Shown here: in pieces, positions 2 through 8,069 of the stretch | Layout of the letters: the number at the start of each line of letters is the position of its first letter | How positions within the stretch are numbered: the first letter of the stretch is position 1 | NCBI GenBank assembly: GCA_947497475.1 | Contig: CANMGS010000002.1 | Location: 496,001 to 560,000, forward strand | DNA length: 64,000 nt | Origin: an uncultured Amylibacter sp. | GTDB lineage: Bacteria; Pseudomonadota; Alphaproteobacteria; Rhodobacterales; Rhodobacteraceae | Reading direction: 5' to 3' | Program-made: the position numbers and the translations under genes | Notes under the pieces: generated by a model | The model's input: the letters and a program-made list of their open reading frames with translations, nothing else | The model's database searches: none | Told to the model about the DNA's origin: nothing

Positions 2-577
2 ATGGTAAGTGCTGAGGAACGTGTGGCGCATGTTGCCGAATGCTTGCCAGAGATTTGTACGCTGGATTGCGGCACGATGAATTTTGCCGAAGCTGATTAT
101 GTGATGACGAACACGCCTGGCATGCTTGAAGCGATGGGATCGATGATGGAAGATCTCGGTGTAAAACCAGAGATCGAAGCTTTTGATACAGGGCATTTAT
201 GGCTTGCTAAAAATTTAGTGGAGAAGGGCATCTTAAAATCACCTGCACTTGTGCAGCTTTGTATGGGCATTCCTTGGGGGGCTCCTGATGATTTGAACAC
301 TTTTATGGCCATGGTAAACAATGTACCTAATGACTGGAATTGGTCAGCTTTTTCCATTGGTCGCAATGAATTACCATATGTTGCAGCGGCTACCTTAGCA
401 GGTGGTCATGTGCGTGTAGGGTTGGAAGATAACCTGTGGTTGGCAAAAGGTCAGTTGGCGACGAATGCTGATTTGGTCAAACGTGCAGTGACCATTATTG
501 AGGGTATGGGGGCATCTGTAATGGGTCCTGATGCGGTACGTGAGAAGCTACGATTAACCAAGCGAGCTCCCAAATGA
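2..577 (+). CDS. BKACE-family beta-keto acid cleavage enzyme, probably dehydrocarnitine cleavage (5' partial)
   Basis: C-terminal 191 residues of a DUF849/BKACE enzyme; the family is about 300 residues, so roughly a third lies upstream of the window and the ATG at base 2 is probably internal. The family signature GGHVRVGLEDN is near residues 134-144, preceded by a GIPWGAPDDLN segment typical of the TIM-barrel fold. BKACE enzymes condense a beta-keto acid with acetyl-CoA, giving a CoA ester plus acetoacetate. The next gene is a carnitine dehydrogenase that overlaps this one by 4 bases (ATGA), so the likely substrate is 3-dehydrocarnitine, giving betainyl-CoA and acetoacetate. The family call is firm; the substrate is inferred from the neighbour. 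Confidence 0.85.
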   Translation: MVSAEERVAHVAECLPEICTLDCGTMNFAEADYVMTNTPGMLEAMGSMMEDLGVKPEIEAFDTGHLWLAKNLVEKGILKSPALVQLCMGIPWGAPDDLNTFMAMVNNVPNDWNWSAFSIGRNELPYVAAATLAGGHVRVGLEDNLWLAKGQLATNADLVKRAVTIIEGMGASVMGPDAVREKLRLTKRAPK

Positions 578-2010
578 GCCGCGTTGTAGCAATTATCGGC
601 GGCGGTGTGATCGGCGGTGGCTGGTTAACGCGTTTTTTGTTGAACGGCTGGGATGTCAATGTATTTGACCCTGATCCAGAAGCGGAGCGTAAAATCGGTG
701 AGGTTCTGGTAAATGCACGCCGTGCGCTGCCAATGTTATATGATGTTTCTTTACCTGAGGAAGGTAAGCTAAGGTTTTGTGATACAATTGAGGCAGCGGT
801 TGCAGGTGTGGAATGGATACAAGAAAGTGTTCCTGAGCGGCTGGATATAAAACATAAAGTATTCATTGAGGTGGAAAAATACGCTTCAAAAGATGCGATT
901 ATTGGATCTTCTACGTCAGGTTTTAAACCGTCAGAGTTACAAGAAGGTTTATCACGACCAGAAGCTGTTGTTGTGACACACCCATTTAACCCTGTGTATC
1001 TGCTGCCGCTTATCGAGCTAGTTCCTTCTGATATAAATGATCAGCCAATGATAGAACGCGCTCAGAGTATTTTAACATCACTGGGGCTCTACCCACTTCA
1101 TGTTCGTAAAGAGATTGATGCGCATATCGCAGATCGTTTTTTAGAAGCCGTTTGGCGCGAAGCATTGTGGTTGATCAAAGATGGGATCGCTACAACAGAA
1201 GAAATTGATAACGCCATTCGCTATGGTTTTGGTCTGCGGTGGGGGCAAATGGGCCTGTTCGAAACCTACCGCGTTGCGGGCGGTGAGGCTGGTATGGAAC
1301 ATTTCATTGCACAATTTGGGCCGTGCTTAAAATGGCCTTGGACGAAACTTATGGATGTACCAGAGCTTACAGATGAATTGACTAAACAGATTGCAGGGCA
1401 GTCCGATGCACAATCTGGGCATATGTCGATCCGCGAACTAGAACAACTGCGCGATAACAATTTGGTCGCGATGATACGTGCGTTAAAAGGGCAAAATGCA
1501 GCGGCAGGAGAGCTGTTAAACACACATCAGGCGACATTAACGGCTCGTGATACCCCAGATTTTAGTAAGCCGTTGCAGACTGTGAACCGTGTGATCCCTG
1601 TGGATTGGGTTGATTACAATGGTCATATGAATGAAAGCCGCTATGGGCAGGTGTTTTCGGATGCTGCTGATGCCGTGATGGTCGCAGTCGGAGCAGATGA
1701 AGCTTATGTTGCGGGTGGTTTAAGCTATTTTACTGTAGATATAGATATCAAATTTTTACTGGAAACCCATGTAGGGCAAGCAATTACAGTTATGTCCTAT
1801 GTGCTTATGGGTGAAGGCAAAAAGTTGAAACTCTTTCATCAAATGTTGTCTGAAGATGGAGAGCTTCTGGCGACGGGCGAGCAATTCTTGCTGCATGTCA
1901 GCTTAGAAACGCGCCGTACATGTGAGCCTGAAAGTTCAGTTTTAGCAAATATTGAAGCCGCAGCCACTGCACATGCAAAACTGCCTGATCCGCGAACACA
2001 AAGGGGATAG
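574..2010 (+). CDS. lcdH: L-carnitine dehydrogenase fused to thioesterase
   Basis: 478 residues in two parts. Residues 1 to about 320 form a 3-hydroxyacyl-CoA dehydrogenase-type domain with the NAD-binding glycine motif GGGVIGGGW at residues 9-17 and the HPFNPVYLLPLIELV segment of the family. Residues about 330-478 are a hotdog thioesterase domain with the DWVDYNGHMNESRY motif (Asp344 and Asp347). This fusion is the architecture of bifunctional L-carnitine dehydrogenase/betainyl-CoA thioesterase: NAD-dependent oxidation of L-carnitine to 3-dehydrocarnitine, and release of glycine betaine from betainyl-CoA. The start overlaps the BKACE stop (ATGA), and BKACE provides the intermediate step. The hotdog domain could also act on carnitinyl-CoA; sequence alone does not decide. 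Confidence 0.9.
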   Translation: MSRVVAIIGGGVIGGGWLTRFLLNGWDVNVFDPDPEAERKIGEVLVNARRALPMLYDVSLPEEGKLRFCDTIEAAVAGVEWIQESVPERLDIKHKVFIEVEKYASKDAIIGSSTSGFKPSELQEGLSRPEAVVVTHPFNPVYLLPLIELVPSDINDQPMIERAQSILTSLGLYPLHVRKEIDAHIADRFLEAVWREALWLIKDGIATTEEIDNAIRYGFGLRWGQMGLFETYRVAGGEAGMEHFIAQFGPCLKWPWTKLMDVPELTDELTKQIAGQSDAQSGHMSIRELEQLRDNNLVAMIRALKGQNAAAGELLNTHQATLTARDTPDFSKPLQTVNRVIPVDWVDYNGHMNESRYGQVFSDAADAVMVAVGADEAYVAGGLSYFTVDIDIKFLLETHVGQAITVMSYVLMGEGKKLKLFHQMLSEDGELLATGEQFLLHVSLETRRTCEPESSVLANIEAAATAHAKLPDPRTQRG

Positions 2011-2012
2011 AT

Positions 2013-3173
2013 ATGCATTTTGGATTAACCCAAGAACAAGAAATGATCGTGGATACGGTCAGAAGCTTCGTTGAAAATGAAATTTATCCGCATGAAGCCA
2101 TGGTTGAACGCACAGGTGAAGTGCCACACGAAATTGCACAAGATATCAAACAAAAGACCATGGATCTGGGGTTTTATGCTTGTAATTTTCCTGAAAGCGT
2201 TGGTTGCGCTGGATTAAATCATGTGGACTTCGCGCTTGTTGAGCGCGAGTTGGGACGTGGATCAATGGCATTGAACCATTTCTTTGGACGTCCCCAAAAT
2301 ATTTTGATGGCCTGCAAAGAGGATCAGATTGAACGGTATCTGATGCCAGCGGTACGCGGTGAAAAGATGGATGCGCTTGCTATGACGGAACCTGATGCAG
2401 GTTCAGACGTGCGCGGTATGAAATGCTCTGCAGTTCAAGATGGAACAGATTGGGTGATTAATGGATCAAAGCACTTTATATCTGGTGCAGAACATGCAGA
2501 TTTCTTTATTGTTTTCGTTGCTACTGGTGTTGATGAAACACCGCGCGGCCCGAAAAAACGGATCACTACATTTCTAGTGGATCGCGGCACACCAGGGTTT
2601 GAGGTTCGTGATGGATATAATTCAGTCAGCCATAAAGGATATAAAAATTGCATTCTTGATTTTGATGATTGCCGATTGCCCAAAGAACAGGTTTTGGGTG
2701 AGGTAGATGGTGGTTTTGCAGTGATGAATGAATGGCTGTACGCCACACGGATCACGGTGGCGACAATGTCAGTCGGACGCGCACGCAGATGTTTTGATTA
2801 CGCATTAAACTATGCATCTGAACGCAAACAATTCGGACAACAGATTGGCAAGTTCCAAGGCGTCAGTTTCCAGATTGCGGATATGATAACAGAGATTGAT
2901 GCAGCAGATTGGCTTACTTTGGCGGCTGCATGGCGATTAGATAATGACCTGCCTGCAAACCGCGAAATTGCGAGTGCAAAGGTCTACGCAAGTGAAATGT
3001 TGGCGCGTGTCACGGATGCAACCTTACAAATCTACGGTGGTATGGGATTGATGGATGATTTCCCAATCGAACGTTTCTGGCGGGATGCGCGTGTAGAACG
3101 GATTTGGGATGGGACATCCGAAATTCAACGTCACATTATCAGCCGTGATTTATTACGGCCCTTGGGGGCATAA
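2013..3173 (+). CDS. Acyl-CoA dehydrogenase, candidate gamma-butyrobetainyl-CoA dehydrogenase
   Basis: 386 residues, the usual length for an FAD acyl-CoA dehydrogenase. It shows the MTEPDAGSD flavin/substrate motif near residues 126-134, the RKQFGQQIGKFQ segment and the C-terminal YGGMGLM...RIWDGTSEIQR block. It starts 2 bases after the lcdH stop and ends directly at the ATG of the CoA ligase gene. In this context it would introduce the double bond of a four-carbon betainyl chain (gamma-butyrobetainyl-CoA to crotonobetainyl-CoA), or work on crotonobetaine reduction as CaiA does. Residue 366 is Asp (WDGT), where medium-chain-type enzymes carry the catalytic Glu (YEGT). Family certain; substrate inferred. 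Confidence 0.88.
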   Translation: MHFGLTQEQEMIVDTVRSFVENEIYPHEAMVERTGEVPHEIAQDIKQKTMDLGFYACNFPESVGCAGLNHVDFALVERELGRGSMALNHFFGRPQNILMACKEDQIERYLMPAVRGEKMDALAMTEPDAGSDVRGMKCSAVQDGTDWVINGSKHFISGAEHADFFIVFVATGVDETPRGPKKRITTFLVDRGTPGFEVRDGYNSVSHKGYKNCILDFDDCRLPKEQVLGEVDGGFAVMNEWLYATRITVATMSVGRARRCFDYALNYASERKQFGQQIGKFQGVSFQIADMITEIDAADWLTLAAAWRLDNDLPANREIASAKVYASEMLARVTDATLQIYGGMGLMDDFPIERFWRDARVERIWDGTSEIQRHIISRDLLRPLGA

Positions 3174-5222
3174 ATGAAGGCAGGATTGGATCGCCTTTTC
3201 AGACCTAAAAGCATTGCTGTTATCGGCGGCGGCAGTTGGTGTGCGAATGTGATCAAAAAGTGCCATGAGATTGGATTTGAGGGCGAAATATATCCTGTGC
3301 ACCCAAATAAAGAAGTTATGGAGGGCATTGCATGTTATGCCTCTGTTGAAGCGCTACCAGAAGCCCCTGATGCTTGTTTTATTGGGGTAAACCGAAACGC
3401 AACGATAGAGATTGTCAGGCAGCTTCGCGACAAAGGGGCAGGTGGCGTAGTTTGTTTTGCAAGCGGCTTTCTTGAAACATTGGGTGAAGATGCGGATGGT
3501 GCAGATCTACAAAAAGAGCTTTTAGATGCCGCAGGTGATATGACCTTAATTGGCCCCAACTGTTATGGATTTGTAAACTATTTAGACGGTGCTCTTTTAT
3601 GGCCAGATCAGCATGGTGGAATACGAACAGATCGCGGTGTTGCTATCATTACACAATCGTCCAACATAGCGATCAACCTAACGATGCAAAAACGTGGCTT
3701 ACCCGTGGCATATGTAGTAACTGCGGGCAATCAAGCACAAACAGGAATGTCTGAAATAGGTACGGCTTTACTTGATGATGAACGTGTCACAGCACTAGGT
3801 CTTCATATCGAAGGTATCGACGATTTACGTGCATTTGAAAAGCTTAGCCAAACAGCACGTGATTTAGGAAAATCAGTTGTTGTGCTAAAGGTGGGCAAGT
3901 CTGATCAGGCACAGGCAGCAACGATTTCGCATACGGCTTCCTTAGCTGGAAGTGATGCAGGGGCGCAGGCTTTATTTTCCCGATTGGGCTTCGCACAAGT
4001 TCAGTCTTTGCCTGAGATGCTCGAGGCTTTGAAAATACTCCATGTTATAGGGCCATTAAAAAGCAACCAGATTGCATCAATGTCTTGTTCCGGTGGCGAA
4101 GCCAGCCTAATGGCTGATACAGCTGTTGGACGCGATTTGGTGTTCCCTGAATTAACACAAAGTCAGCATGAAAATTTACGTACTGCACTTGGGCCGCTGG
4201 TGAAATTAGCAAACCCATTAGATTATCACACCTACATCTGGGGTGATTTAGAGGCGATGAGGCGTACATTTACAGCAATGATGGAACCTCACTTAGGGTT
4301 TGGTGTCTTGATATTAGATTTCCCGCGCGATGATCGTTGTGACCCAAGTGCATGGGACAATGTAATCGAGGCGGTTGAAAAAGCACAAAAAACAACAGAG
4401 CAACCAATAGGAATTGTGTCGAGTTTGATCGAGACTATGCCTGAAAGTGTTGCCGATCGGTTGATCGCTAAAGGCATCGTGCCACTTTGCGGTTTAGGTG
4501 AAGCTTTGGCAGCAATAGAAGCAGCGGTATTCTGCGGGCGCCAACAGAACCAAGTTGTACCAGTGGTTTTGCCTTTAGAACCGAAAAATGTGAAAGCGAT
4601 AACGGAATATGAAGCCAAAGGATTGTTAAAGGCATCAGGCGTTACCGTGCCACGAGTGCAATCTACAAATGACACAGCTTCTGTCGGGAAAGTTGCGGAA
4701 GAAATTGGATTTCCTGTTGTTTTAAAAGGACAAGGGATTGCTCATAAATCAGATGTTGGTGCTGTCGCTTTGAACTTAACATCTGCGAATGCTGTATATG
4801 ATAAAGCAATTGCTATGCCAGTGGACAGTTTTCTGATTGAGGAAATGGTGACGGATGGGGTTGCTGAGTTGCTTGTTGGCGTTGTTCAAGACCACGCACA
4901 TGGTTATGTCCTTACATTAGCAGCTGGCGGTGTTTTGACGGAACTTTTAACGGACAGTCAATCGTTGCTGGTGCCGGCAAGCGAAGCTGAAATTGAAGGT
5001 GCCCTAAATCAGTTAAAGGTTGCTGCCCAATTGAATGGGTTTCGTGGGGAGCCTCCAGCCAATGTGAATGCTATTGTTGCAACTGTGATGGCTGTGCAAG
5101 ATTATGTGATAAAGAATGCAGGTTCTGTAAAAGAGATAGAGATCAATCCGCTTTTATGTACGCCAGAACGTGCAATCGCAGTGGATGCATTGATTGCAAT
5201 AGGAGATAAAGATGACGGATAG
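3174..5222 (+). CDS. ADP-forming acyl-CoA synthetase (acetate-CoA ligase family)
   Basis: 682 residues with the order of single-chain ADP-forming acyl-CoA synthetases: N-terminal CoA-binding Rossmann domain (residues about 1-140, SIAVIGGGSW), two succinyl-CoA-ligase-like domains, and a C-terminal ATP-grasp domain (about 460-680, FPVVLKGQGIAHKSDVGAV). The phosphohistidine motif ISHTASLAG places the active His at residue 253. Such enzymes make an acyl-CoA from acid, CoA and ATP, forming ADP and phosphate. Between an acyl-CoA dehydrogenase and a CaiD-like hydratase it probably activates gamma-butyrobetaine, crotonobetaine or carnitine, replacing the CaiB transferase or the AMP-forming CaiC. The start codon follows the previous stop directly, and the end overlaps the next gene by 11 bases. 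Confidence 0.85.
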   Translation: MKAGLDRLFRPKSIAVIGGGSWCANVIKKCHEIGFEGEIYPVHPNKEVMEGIACYASVEALPEAPDACFIGVNRNATIEIVRQLRDKGAGGVVCFASGFLETLGEDADGADLQKELLDAAGDMTLIGPNCYGFVNYLDGALLWPDQHGGIRTDRGVAIITQSSNIAINLTMQKRGLPVAYVVTAGNQAQTGMSEIGTALLDDERVTALGLHIEGIDDLRAFEKLSQTARDLGKSVVVLKVGKSDQAQAATISHTASLAGSDAGAQALFSRLGFAQVQSLPEMLEALKILHVIGPLKSNQIASMSCSGGEASLMADTAVGRDLVFPELTQSQHENLRTALGPLVKLANPLDYHTYIWGDLEAMRRTFTAMMEPHLGFGVLILDFPRDDRCDPSAWDNVIEAVEKAQKTTEQPIGIVSSLIETMPESVADRLIAKGIVPLCGLGEALAAIEAAVFCGRQQNQVVPVVLPLEPKNVKAITEYEAKGLLKASGVTVPRVQSTNDTASVGKVAEEIGFPVVLKGQGIAHKSDVGAVALNLTSANAVYDKAIAMPVDSFLIEEMVTDGVAELLVGVVQDHAHGYVLTLAAGGVLTELLTDSQSLLVPASEAEIEGALNQLKVAAQLNGFRGEPPANVNAIVATVMAVQDYVIKNAGSVKEIEINPLLCTPERAIAVDALIAIGDKDDG

Positions 5223-5997
5223 CCCAATAAAAACCCACCGCGAGGGGGCTGTGTTAGAGGTGACTTTGGATCGCCCAAAGGCCAATGCGATCGACTTGGC
5301 TACCAGCCGTATTATGGGGGATGTCTTTGCAAGTTTTCGCGATGATTCAGAATTGCGCGTCGCGATTGTGACAGCCGCAGGAGAGAAATTCTTTTGCCCT
5401 GGTTGGGATTTAAAAGCAGCTGCGGATGGTGATGCTGTGGATGGTGATTACGGCGTTGGCGGATTTGGCGGTATTCAAGAGCTGCCTGATTTTAACAAAC
5501 CAGTAATCTGTGCCGTAAATGGTATTTGTTGTGGTGGTGGATTAGAGTTAGCGCTTTCTTGCGATATTATTATGGCTGCAGAACACGCCAGTTTTGCTTT
5601 ACCAGAGATCCGTTCAGGAACCGTTGCAGATGCGGCATCAATCAAACTCCCAAAACGTATCCCGTATCATATTGCCATGGAAATGCTGCTGACAGGCCGT
5701 TGGTTGGACGCTGAAGAAGCTGCACGTTGGGGAATGATCAATCAAGTTCATTCTGCCAAAGATTTAATGGCAAAAGCACGTGAAATGGCACAACTGATTG
5801 CCAGTGGGCCACCTTTGGTAAACGCGGCGATTAAAGAAGTTGTGCGTGAGGCTGAGAATATGAAGTTCCATGATGCATTGAAAAAGATCACATCGAGTGA
5901 ATTTGAAACCGTCAAAACGCTTTATACATCTGAAGATCAATTGGAAGGTGCAAAAGCCTTTGCTGAAAAACGGGATCCTGTTTGGAAAGGGCGTTAG
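5212..5997 (+). CDS. caiD: Crotonobetainyl-CoA hydratase (CaiD-like enoyl-CoA hydratase)
   Basis: 261 residues, a crotonase-fold enzyme whose length matches E. coli CaiD. From memory of CaiD, the segments CPGWDLKAAADGDAVDG, GGFGGIQELPDFNKPVI and TGRWLDAEEAARWGMINQV resemble it much more closely than a generic hydratase. The oxyanion-hole motif NGICCGGGLELALSCD is near residues 103-118. CaiD hydrates crotonobetainyl-CoA to L-carnitinyl-CoA. Here it overlaps the CoA ligase gene by 11 bases and precedes the demethylase by 5 bases, in an operon that also carries carnitine dehydrogenase, so the assignment is well supported. A role on another 4-trimethylammonio acyl-CoA cannot be excluded. Confidence 0.85.
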   Translation: MTDSPIKTHREGAVLEVTLDRPKANAIDLATSRIMGDVFASFRDDSELRVAIVTAAGEKFFCPGWDLKAAADGDAVDGDYGVGGFGGIQELPDFNKPVICAVNGICCGGGLELALSCDIIMAAEHASFALPEIRSGTVADAASIKLPKRIPYHIAMEMLLTGRWLDAEEAARWGMINQVHSAKDLMAKAREMAQLIASGPPLVNAAIKEVVREAENMKFHDALKKITSSEFETVKTLYTSEDQLEGAKAFAEKRDPVWKGR

Positions 5998-6002
5998 CCC
6001 AT

Positions 6003-8069
6003 ATGGCACGTGATCCCAGATATGACAGTCTATTCGAGCCCGTAAAGATTGGACCTGTGACAGCACCCAATCGGTTTTATCAAGTGCCGCATTGTACGGG
6101 TATGGGCTATCGTTACCCAAAGTCAGAGGCGCGATTGCGAGGAATTAAAGCCGAAGGTGGATGGGGTGTTGTGTCTACACAAGAGACAGAAATCCACCCA
6201 ACGTCTGATATTTCACCAGCCAATGAAGCACGGCTTTGGGATGATCGTGATATTCCTGCATTGCGCGCTGTTACTGATGCCGTACATGAGCATGGCAGTT
6301 TAGCGGCTATTCAACTGGTCCATAATGGCCTGCACACGGCCAACCGTTATTCGCGGGCAGTCCCTTTGGCGCCATCCGATGTGGTCGTTGATAGCGATGA
6401 TCCAGTTCAGGCACGCGCAATGGATAAGTCGGATATAAAAGCGTTTCGTCGTTGGCATGTTGAGGCCGCTTTACGTGCAAAAGAGGCAGGATTTGACATT
6501 ATTTATGCTTATGCTGGACATGACATGTCATTGCTGCACCATTTCCTTTTAGCGCGGCATAATCATCGCACCGATGAATACGGCGGCTCATTGGAAAACC
6601 GCCTACGTTTGTTTCGAGAAGTAATTGAGGACACAAAAGAGGCGGTCGGTGATACTTGTGCTGTTGCTGTGCGTATGGCGGTTGATGAATTGCTTGGCAC
6701 AGAAGGAATGCAGCATGATGCAGAAGCGCGTGATGTGATCGAAGCTTTGGCCGAATTGCCTGACCTATGGGATGTGAACCTATCTGATTGGTCAAATGAC
6801 AGCCAAACATCACGGTTTTCGGATGAAGGGTTTCAAGAGAAATATACAAGCTTTGTGAAATCTATAACGACAAAGCCAGTGGTTGGCGTTGGTCGATATA
6901 CATCGCCTGATACTATGGCGCGGCTTATAAAAAAGGGACAATTGGATTTCATAGGTGCTGCGCGCCCATCAATAGCCGATCCGTTCTTGCCAAAGAAAAT
7001 TAAAACGGGTCGCGTTGAAGATATCCGCGAATGCATCGGCTGTAATATTTGTACAGCTGGTGACAATACATGTGTTCCAATGCGGTGCACGCAGAACCCG
7101 ACGATCGGCGAAGAGTGGCGACGTGGTTGGCATCCTGAAATCATCCCAAAGCTTAAAACGCCAGAGCAATATTTGATTGTTGGAGGCGGCCCCGCAGGGC
7201 TAGAAGCAGCACGTGCATTAACACAACGTGGTGCAGATGTTATTTTAGCCGATAAAGCCGATACATGGGGCGGACGTGTGACGTTAGAAAGCAATCTGCC
7301 AGAGTTAAATGCATGGGGACGGGTTCGTGATTGGCGTGTTTGGCAATTACAGCAAGCCTCGAACGCTGAAATGTATTTAAACAGTTCTTTATCTGCGCAA
7401 GATATTTTGGAATACGGTATCCCGAATGTTGTGCTCGCGGCAGGAGCCAAGTGGCGTAAATGTGGACAAGGACGTGTGCATCGTAAGCCATTGCCGTTTT
7501 TAGATCAGACCTGTGTATTTACGCCCGATGACCTGATGAAAAAAGGAGTTGGGGTTATCAAATCTAAAGCGCCTGTTGTGATTTACGATGATGATCGCTT
7601 TTATATGGCGAGTGTTTTGGCTGAAATGATTGCTGCCGCAGGCCACAAGGTGGTGTTCGTGACACCCTCGCCAATCGTGGCTGCTTGGTCTGAAAACACA
7701 TTGGAGCAGGGGCGTATCCAAACACGATTGATTGAACTGGGAGTGGAGATTATCCCAATCAAACAGCTTTCTGGAATGGATAGTGGCGCGGTTTCTCTTA
7801 AATGCGTTTATTCGAACCAAACACAGACTATAGAATGCGGTTCTTTGGTTTTGGTGACATCACGTGCACCTGAAGACATGCTATGGTCTGAGTTGAAAGG
7901 GCAAGAAGCATGTTGGTCAGACGTAGGTATTAAGTCTGTCATGCGTATTGGTGATTGTTTGGCACCTAGTCTGATTGCAAACGCAGTGCAGTCTGGTCAT
8001 GCTTATGCACAAGCCGCTGGATATGATGAAATACCCGAAGTGAAACGCGAAGATTATGGGCGGGTTTAG
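6003..8069 (+). CDS. TMADH/DgcA-family FMN, 4Fe-4S, FAD N-demethylase
   Basis: 688 residues. Residues 1 to about 335 form an NADH:flavin-oxidoreductase TIM barrel (FMN). A 4Fe-4S motif CX2CX2CX11C lies at Cys344, Cys347, Cys350 and Cys362. The rest is an FAD/NAD-type domain beginning LIVGGGPAGLEAA near residue 392. This is the layout of trimethylamine dehydrogenase, dimethylglycine demethylase subunit DgcA and stachydrine/N-methylproline demethylase. The ATG at 6003 gives the MARDPRYDSLFEPVKIGP start usual for the family; an in-frame ATG at 5982 would overlap caiD. As last gene of the carnitine operon it may demethylate a betaine breakdown product. No electron-transfer partner (DgcB-like) is adjacent. 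The exact amine is unknown. Confidence 0.8.
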   Translation: MARDPRYDSLFEPVKIGPVTAPNRFYQVPHCTGMGYRYPKSEARLRGIKAEGGWGVVSTQETEIHPTSDISPANEARLWDDRDIPALRAVTDAVHEHGSLAAIQLVHNGLHTANRYSRAVPLAPSDVVVDSDDPVQARAMDKSDIKAFRRWHVEAALRAKEAGFDIIYAYAGHDMSLLHHFLLARHNHRTDEYGGSLENRLRLFREVIEDTKEAVGDTCAVAVRMAVDELLGTEGMQHDAEARDVIEALAELPDLWDVNLSDWSNDSQTSRFSDEGFQEKYTSFVKSITTKPVVGVGRYTSPDTMARLIKKGQLDFIGAARPSIADPFLPKKIKTGRVEDIRECIGCNICTAGDNTCVPMRCTQNPTIGEEWRRGWHPEIIPKLKTPEQYLIVGGGPAGLEAARALTQRGADVILADKADTWGGRVTLESNLPELNAWGRVRDWRVWQLQQASNAEMYLNSSLSAQDILEYGIPNVVLAAGAKWRKCGQGRVHRKPLPFLDQTCVFTPDDLMKKGVGVIKSKAPVVIYDDDRFYMASVLAEMIAAAGHKVVFVTPSPIVAAWSENTLEQGRIQTRLIELGVEIIPIKQLSGMDSGAVSLKCVYSNQTQTIECGSLVLVTSRAPEDMLWSELKGQEACWSDVGIKSVMRIGDCLAPSLIANAVQSGHAYAQAAGYDEIPEVKREDYGRV

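Follow-up and report, generated by a model that had tools for sequence, protein, structure and literature searches.

Does a marine member of the Rhodobacteraceae break down gamma-butyrobetaine to glycine betaine through coenzyme A (CoA) esters, without an oxygenase? The question is raised by six genes that fill positions 2–8069 of the + strand of a 64,000-nt stretch of DNA from an uncultured Amylibacter sp. (Rhodobacteraceae; G000:C2:496001-560000), referred to here as the window. An earlier interpretation of this DNA from its letters (the sequence-only reading) had assigned the six genes to families and described them as overlapping or nearly so, and our open reading frame (ORF) and Pfam/NCBIfam profile searches confirmed all six ORFs and their family matches. 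With a probability of roughly 0.85, we consider the cluster to be a catabolic operon for gamma-butyrobetaine as well as crotonobetaine and L-carnitine, and we infer its substrates, direction of flux, co-transcription and the role of its sixth gene from sequence. The features of the locus are as follows.

2..577, + strand: BKACE, a predicted 3-dehydrocarnitine:acetyl-CoA cleavage enzyme, of which the C-terminal 191 aa lie in the window (PF05853, 220 bits)
574..2010, + strand: 478-aa fusion of L-carnitine 3-dehydrogenase with a 4HBT-type thioesterase (NF005716, 743 bits, cut-off 592; PF02737, PF00725 and PF13279, that is 3HCDH + 4HBT_2)
1600..1950, + strand: thioesterase domain of this fusion, residues 343–459 (PF13279, 77 bits)
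2013..3173, + strand: 386-aa acyl-CoA dehydrogenase, predicted to act on gamma-butyrobetainyl-CoA (PF02771/PF02770/PF00441, the N, M and C domains; 29% identity to E. coli CaiA)
3108..3110, + strand: Asp366 codon of the acyl-CoA dehydrogenase, at the position of Glu in CarC, butyryl-CoA dehydrogenases and SCAD (alignment)
3174..5222, + strand: 682-aa ADP-forming acyl-CoA ligase, predicted to be a gamma-butyrobetaine:CoA ligase of the BcoAB type (CoA_binding_2/Succ_CoA_lig/ATP-grasp_5)
3930..3932, + strand: His253 codon of the ligase, equivalent by alignment to the phosphorylated His292 of DddX
4224..4241, + strand: Tyr351–Trp356 aromatic segment (YHTYIW) of the ligase, near DddX Trp391 in the alignment
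5212..5997, + strand: CaiD-like crotonobetainyl-CoA hydratase, 261 aa (ECH_1; 53.8% identity to E. coli CaiD)
6003..8069, + strand: flavoprotein of the trimethylamine dehydrogenase (TMADH)/histamine dehydrogenase family, from its ATG start (Oxidored_FMN; first in-frame TTG at 5982)

The intergenic junctions measure −4, +2, 0, −11 and −16 bases in gene order, a packing that suggests a single transcript. The last junction becomes +5 with the flavoenzyme start at ATG 6003; the resulting N-terminus, MARDPRYD, agrees with ARDPKHD of trimethylamine dehydrogenase. The BKACE gene does not begin at base 2, as had been read previously: this codon is an internal Met, the frame continues upstream in G000:C2, and the whole protein of 302 aa runs from ATG L003:11669, 332 bases 5′ of the window edge. 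At full length it matches KCE-type NCBIfam models, all below their cut-offs. Among the NCBIfam matches listed (the best 25 of 73 for the hydratase, the best 25 of 27 for the flavoprotein and all for the other four proteins), the carnitine dehydrogenase is the sole protein above a curated cut-off.

In the pathway that we propose, the ligase would activate gamma-butyrobetaine with ATP and CoA via a phosphohistidine, and the acyl-CoA dehydrogenase would then yield crotonobetainyl-CoA, its electrons presumably passing to electron transfer flavoprotein. The CaiD-like hydratase would convert crotonobetainyl-CoA to L-carnitinyl-CoA, from which either the fused thioesterase or the ligase, working in reverse, could release CoA. 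Carnitine dehydrogenase would oxidise the freed carnitine to 3-dehydrocarnitine, and BKACE with acetyl-CoA would turn this into acetoacetate and betainyl-CoA. We expect the fused thioesterase domain to hydrolyse betainyl-CoA to glycine betaine, and possibly to act on carnitinyl-CoA too. This is in essence the route put forward in the sequence-only reading, and it is supported, still as a prediction, by gene content, gene linkage, the 54% match to CaiD, the lack of a hydroxylase match in the window genome (at E ≤ 1e-40) and the chemistry of Sinorhizobium meliloti.

Gene order carries much of this argument. We searched 149 Rhodobacteraceae genomes (148 genera) for the ligase; 103 matched at E ≤ 1e-60, and leaving out G116 (34% identity) gave 102 ligase-bearing genomes. 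Neighbourhoods were read for 95 of these, with partial or contig-edge matches omitted (G022, G030, G033 contig C57, G079, G091, G095 and G133), and layout gene calls rest on fixed identity thresholds within the fetched DNA. Second-tier ligase loci (L128–L133, ~33–37% identity) were omitted from the layout and ligase-residue counts. On the strand of the ligase, the dehydrogenase lies upstream of it at 92/95 loci and the hydratase downstream at 92/95, an arrangement far beyond chance. BKACE and carnitine dehydrogenase are found upstream, with the hydratase downstream, at 22/95 loci (the window counted) and both downstream at 11/95; at 51/95 the ligase–dehydrogenase–hydratase trio occurs without BKACE or carnitine dehydrogenase in the fetched DNA, and the remaining 11/95 are arranged differently or incompletely, in some cases at the end of a contig. 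Named loci show a similar pattern: the 80 best of at least 584 candidates divide into 19 with the carnitine genes upstream, 14 with them downstream, 35 with the trio alone and 12 others.

The five-gene order together with a divergent GlxA-type regulator is identical in Rhizobium johnstonii 3841 pRL10 (L136) and Sinorhizobium sp. K101 (L243); the annotations of the former include carnitine 3-dehydrogenase and carnitinyl-CoA dehydratase. The five-gene order also recurs in other Rhodobacteraceae, including another Amylibacter (L138) that has the five genes and lacks the sixth. The claim that the gene order is conserved thus stands for five genes, but not for six: among the loci examined, the sixth gene joins the others only in the window and in Amylibacter sp. 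SFDW26 (L137), and we reject the idea that all six genes in this order form a conserved unit. In a class-wide sample, the ligase was found in 24/289 genomes at E ≤ 1e-130, 4 of them Rhodobacteraceae.

Co-occurrence across genomes points in the same direction. Carnitine dehydrogenase is present in 117/149 family genomes and in 100 of the 102 that bear the ligase (Fisher p = 4e-17, a value that ignores shared ancestry, with 148 genera in the 149 genomes). The two ligase genomes lacking it are G033, which is 74% complete, and G102, which is in ~870 contigs.

The ligase belongs to the fused alpha/beta NDP-forming family. At the level of residues, its predicted phosphohistidine His253, Tyr351 and Trp356 are each identical in 177/177 ligase relatives, and the Tyr351–Trp356 segment is a candidate contact for the trimethylammonium group. 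The ligase is ~53% and the dehydrogenase/thioesterase fusion ~49% identical to their counterparts in Sinorhizobium K101. The hydratase shares E112 and E132 with E. coli CaiD, and the CaiD model NF002936 is its top-scoring model among the matches listed.

Does this route take the place of gamma-butyrobetaine hydroxylase? The absence of that enzyme, expected from the sequence-only reading, held for the window genome, in which the hydroxylase model TIGR02409 has no match at E ≤ 1e-40 (weaker matches are not listed), but not for the family, in which 44/149 genomes match at this threshold and 3/149 lie above the curated cut-off. Hydroxylase-like genes are commoner with the ligase (37/102) than without it (7/47; p = 0.011), and a 350-bit threshold, chosen post hoc with the list already seen, gives 22/102 against 0/47. 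Among carnitine-dehydrogenase-bearing genomes only, there is no difference (37/100 with the ligase, 6/17 without). Mutual exclusion of the CoA route and the hydroxylase is ruled out by these counts, since the hydroxylase is not rarer in ligase genomes; it is in fact commoner there, so the CoA route does not in general stand in for it, though the window genome appears to be without a hydroxylase.

Several observations weigh against a gamma-butyrobetaine operon. The evidence from this organism comprises gene content, gene order, conservation, co-occurrence and residues, and no transporter gene lies within the operon. Scores fall below the model cut-offs for the hydratase against the CaiD model NF002936 (327 bits, cut-off 500), as they do for the R. 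johnstonii and Sinorhizobium K101 hydratases (314 and 310 bits), and for the dehydrogenase against the CaiA model NF002885 (180 bits, cut-off 540). The presumed orthology of the ligase with S. meliloti BcoAB rests on the K101 locus (53% identity, full synteny) and not on the BcoAB sequence. Two of the 100 genomes with both genes (G059 and G090) carry a carnitine-dehydrogenase relative only 40–47% identical over the first 320 residues, and 17 of the 47 genomes counted as ligase-free (one, G116, with a 34% relative) still carry carnitine dehydrogenase. The 51 loci at which the trio stands apart from the carnitine genes belong here too. Strain HK4, a Rhizobium/Agrobacterium-like industrial carnitine strain compared with the window by its described pathway, points both ways: the accessible part of PMC2131755 describes its conversion of gamma-butyrobetaine to L-carnitine as "analogous but not identical to" fatty acid degradation, and Table 2 of the same source names gamma-butyrobetaine hydroxylase as an HK4 activity.

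The separate trios also fit an explanation in which the trio serves mainly another onium acid, for example delta-valerobetaine or some sulfonium resembling dimethylsulfoniopropionate (DMSP), and shares an operon with the carnitine genes as products converge or substrates co-occur. Of the relatives with solved structures, the one that scores best with the ligase is indeed the ATP-dependent DMSP lyase DddX (7cm9, 198 bits), which makes the CoA ester of that onium acid according to the portion of PMC8163506 available to us. We consider this explanation unlikely, given how regularly carnitine dehydrogenase accompanies the ligase and that the top NCBIfam model of the hydratase, among those listed, is CaiD. 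Moreover, Glu432, proposed as the catalytic or elimination base of DddX in the same partial source, aligns with Ser in the window ligase, albeit at a poorly aligned spot with a flanking segment that varies across relatives, and S. meliloti BcoAB acts on gamma-butyrobetaine, forming gamma-butyrobetainyl-CoA with ATP and CoA (PMC8364193, seen in part).

We give still less credence to a cluster confined to crotonobetaine and carnitine, in which the dehydrogenase would be a crotonobetainyl-CoA reductase like CaiA and gamma-butyrobetaine a product. CaiA and the window dehydrogenase do belong to one superfamily, and the reductase CarC is among the close solved relatives of the latter; however, CaiA has Gly where window-type dehydrogenases have Asp or Glu, and no CaiB- or fixABCX-like genes are present in the operon. 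The oxidative carnitine branch is, in addition, strongly linked to the trio, which would leave an aerobe no use for a reductive one. Degradation of gamma-butyrobetaine through CoA esters remains the interpretation that we prefer.

The position that separates CaiA from the window-type enzymes deserves attention in its own right. Asp366 of the window dehydrogenase aligns with a Glu in CarC, butyryl-CoA dehydrogenases and SCAD that we take to be the catalytic base of these solved relatives. Among 175 relatives (L003, L034–L133 and L135–L216, the six dehydrogenases of L128–L133 included here and in the tree), 148 have D at this position and the other 27 have E. This set and the 177 ligase relatives each pool unnamed family loci with L135–L216, two groups of loci that overlap in genomes and are therefore not independent. 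In a tree of 95 dehydrogenase rows, two of which are the window (once under its own name and once as L003), 20 Glu forms make up one clade (98/98) and 68 Asp forms the clade next to it (100/99). Five more Asp rows form another group, and a single deep Glu row, L133, attaches to the long branch of CaiA. Since dehydrogenases of both types adjoin the same ligase and hydratase, both are probably functional. Glu-clade dehydrogenases share the operon slot, in some cases next to ligases similar to those found with Asp-type dehydrogenases; this hints at swapping of the dehydrogenase.

The sixth gene stands outside the conserved five-gene core and is accessory. Its protein is full-length and nearer to histamine dehydrogenase (6de6, 788 bits; 3k30, 737 bits) than to trimethylamine dehydrogenase (1djn, 546 bits), resembling these enzymes in length and in the cysteine motif of the family and differing from trimethylamine dehydrogenase in cage residues. 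Of the aromatic cage of trimethylamine dehydrogenase, which we take to be Tyr60/Trp264/Trp355, alignment to 1djn shows Tyr60 replaced by Glu, Trp264 kept and Trp355 lost, and trimethylamine is by these substitutions an unlikely substrate. The gene lies beside the operon at 1/95 family loci (the window itself) and at 1 of the best 80 of at least 584 named loci; in the closely related Amylibacter sp. SFDW26 the adjoining flavoprotein is 84% identical. Relatives 66–74% identical occur on plasmids of Sulfitobacter, Shinella and S. meliloti (pSymA), and the three loci read have no match to BKACE, carnitine dehydrogenase, ligase, dehydrogenase or hydratase within 8 kb (the pSymA record is unannotated), and one 49% relative is annotated as 6-hydroxypseudooxynicotine oxidase. 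Our best guess is a predicted amine dehydrogenase or N-demethylase added in one lineage. A more specific joint proposal, which we regard as doubtful, has two parts: gamma-butyrobetainyl-CoA dehydrogenases of one clade would use Asp as the catalytic base, and those of its sister clade, found in equivalent operons, would use Glu; and in an extended pathway of the Amylibacter type, the histamine/TMADH-family enzyme, encoded on the same transcript, would remove a methyl group from an amine formed beyond glycine betaine.

Around the six genes, a divergent AraC/GlxA-type regulator lies upstream of BKACE (L003:10637-11593); its best NCBIfam model is GbdR (172 bits, cut-off 480), and this GlxA/GbdR-type protein probably controls the operon. 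A coproporphyrinogen oxidase gene follows 97 bases 3′ of the cluster, and promoter and terminator scans of the locus were uninformative. Clustering of the genes neighbouring the ligase at the 95 loci revealed no consistent partner, the commonest cluster occurring at 17/95, and clusters resembling ABC transporter parts, as judged by eye, were present at no more than 9/95. Elsewhere in the window genome there are one BCCT match over its cut-off and six OpuAC-type matches, and ABC transporters adjoin the carnitine genes in R. johnstonii (L136:11949-17088) and Paracoccus methylovorus (L227:12749-18016).

Variants of the cluster were also observed. The second-tier loci L128–L133 represent a divergent version with dehydrogenases of 50–55% and, at five of six loci, BKACE proteins of 51–54% identity; at L128 and L132 the carnitine-dehydrogenase-like protein has 311–313 aa, too short for the thioesterase domain. 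Four genomes (G036, G043, G090 and G141) hold the divergent cluster alongside the main one, and the divergent version may accordingly serve another betaine. On a Sinorhizobium numidicum plasmid (L226), a ligase/hydratase pair is followed by two distant acyl-CoA dehydrogenases (23–25%), and the vicinity also holds a PaaI thioesterase as a separate gene and a BKACE of 32% identity, possibly a cluster for a different acid. In Ruegeria pomeroyi, a DJ-1/PfpI-family gene sits between ligase and hydratase (L135:11017-11622).

The presence of the ligase in 102/149 genomes suggests that Rhodobacteraceae commonly convert gamma-butyrobetaine to glycine betaine by an oxygenase-free CoA route, in which case carnitine and its precursor are likely ordinary roseobacter food. 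The gain lies mainly in genome annotation and less in biochemistry, with the Asp/Glu split as a small enzymology question.

How does the locus compare with known systems? Bazire et al. are said to have described in 2019 (J Bacteriol 201:e00772-18), for S. meliloti, five enzymes that take gamma-butyrobetaine to glycine betaine in seven steps and whose gene cluster was identified from genomic context. The route is not new, being already known from S. meliloti and the Rhizobiales. In the available text of PMC12482172, the S. meliloti protein SM2011_c01638 combines carnitine oxidation and betainyl-CoA hydrolysis. For roseobacters, the parts of PMC12478193, PMC5770400 and PMC12143400 that were available do not describe this operon, an absence that means little because subscription papers lie mostly outside our coverage; a Psychrobacter plasmid paper, likewise available in part, has caiAB as its subject.

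The CdhABC proteins of Pseudomonas aeruginosa and R. pomeroyi convert carnitine to glycine betaine via a dehydrogenase, BKACE and a thioesterase, and R. pomeroyi raises CdhABC synthesis on N-osmolytes (PMC12482172 and PMC12478193, both in part); unlike the window cluster, they cover only the carnitine half of the route. The megaplasmid of R. pomeroyi DSS-3 also carries the dehydrogenase–ligase–hydratase trio, and the 20 kb examined there contain neither carnitine dehydrogenase nor BKACE. The E. coli caiTABCDE operon resembles the window cluster in CaiD (53.8%), a distant CaiA (29%) and CoA-bound betaine intermediates, but serves an anaerobic reductive function with Gly at the base position of CaiA, whereas the window operon has no CaiB, CaiC or CaiT and a ligase of a different family. 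The closest likeness is to the S. meliloti pathway, with its BcoAB-type ligase and bifunctional carnitine dehydrogenase/thioesterase, and with the five-gene order found in Sinorhizobium sp. K101; to this pathway the window adds a marine Rhodobacteraceae member with a lineage-specific sixth gene, of the TMADH family, at its 3′ end.

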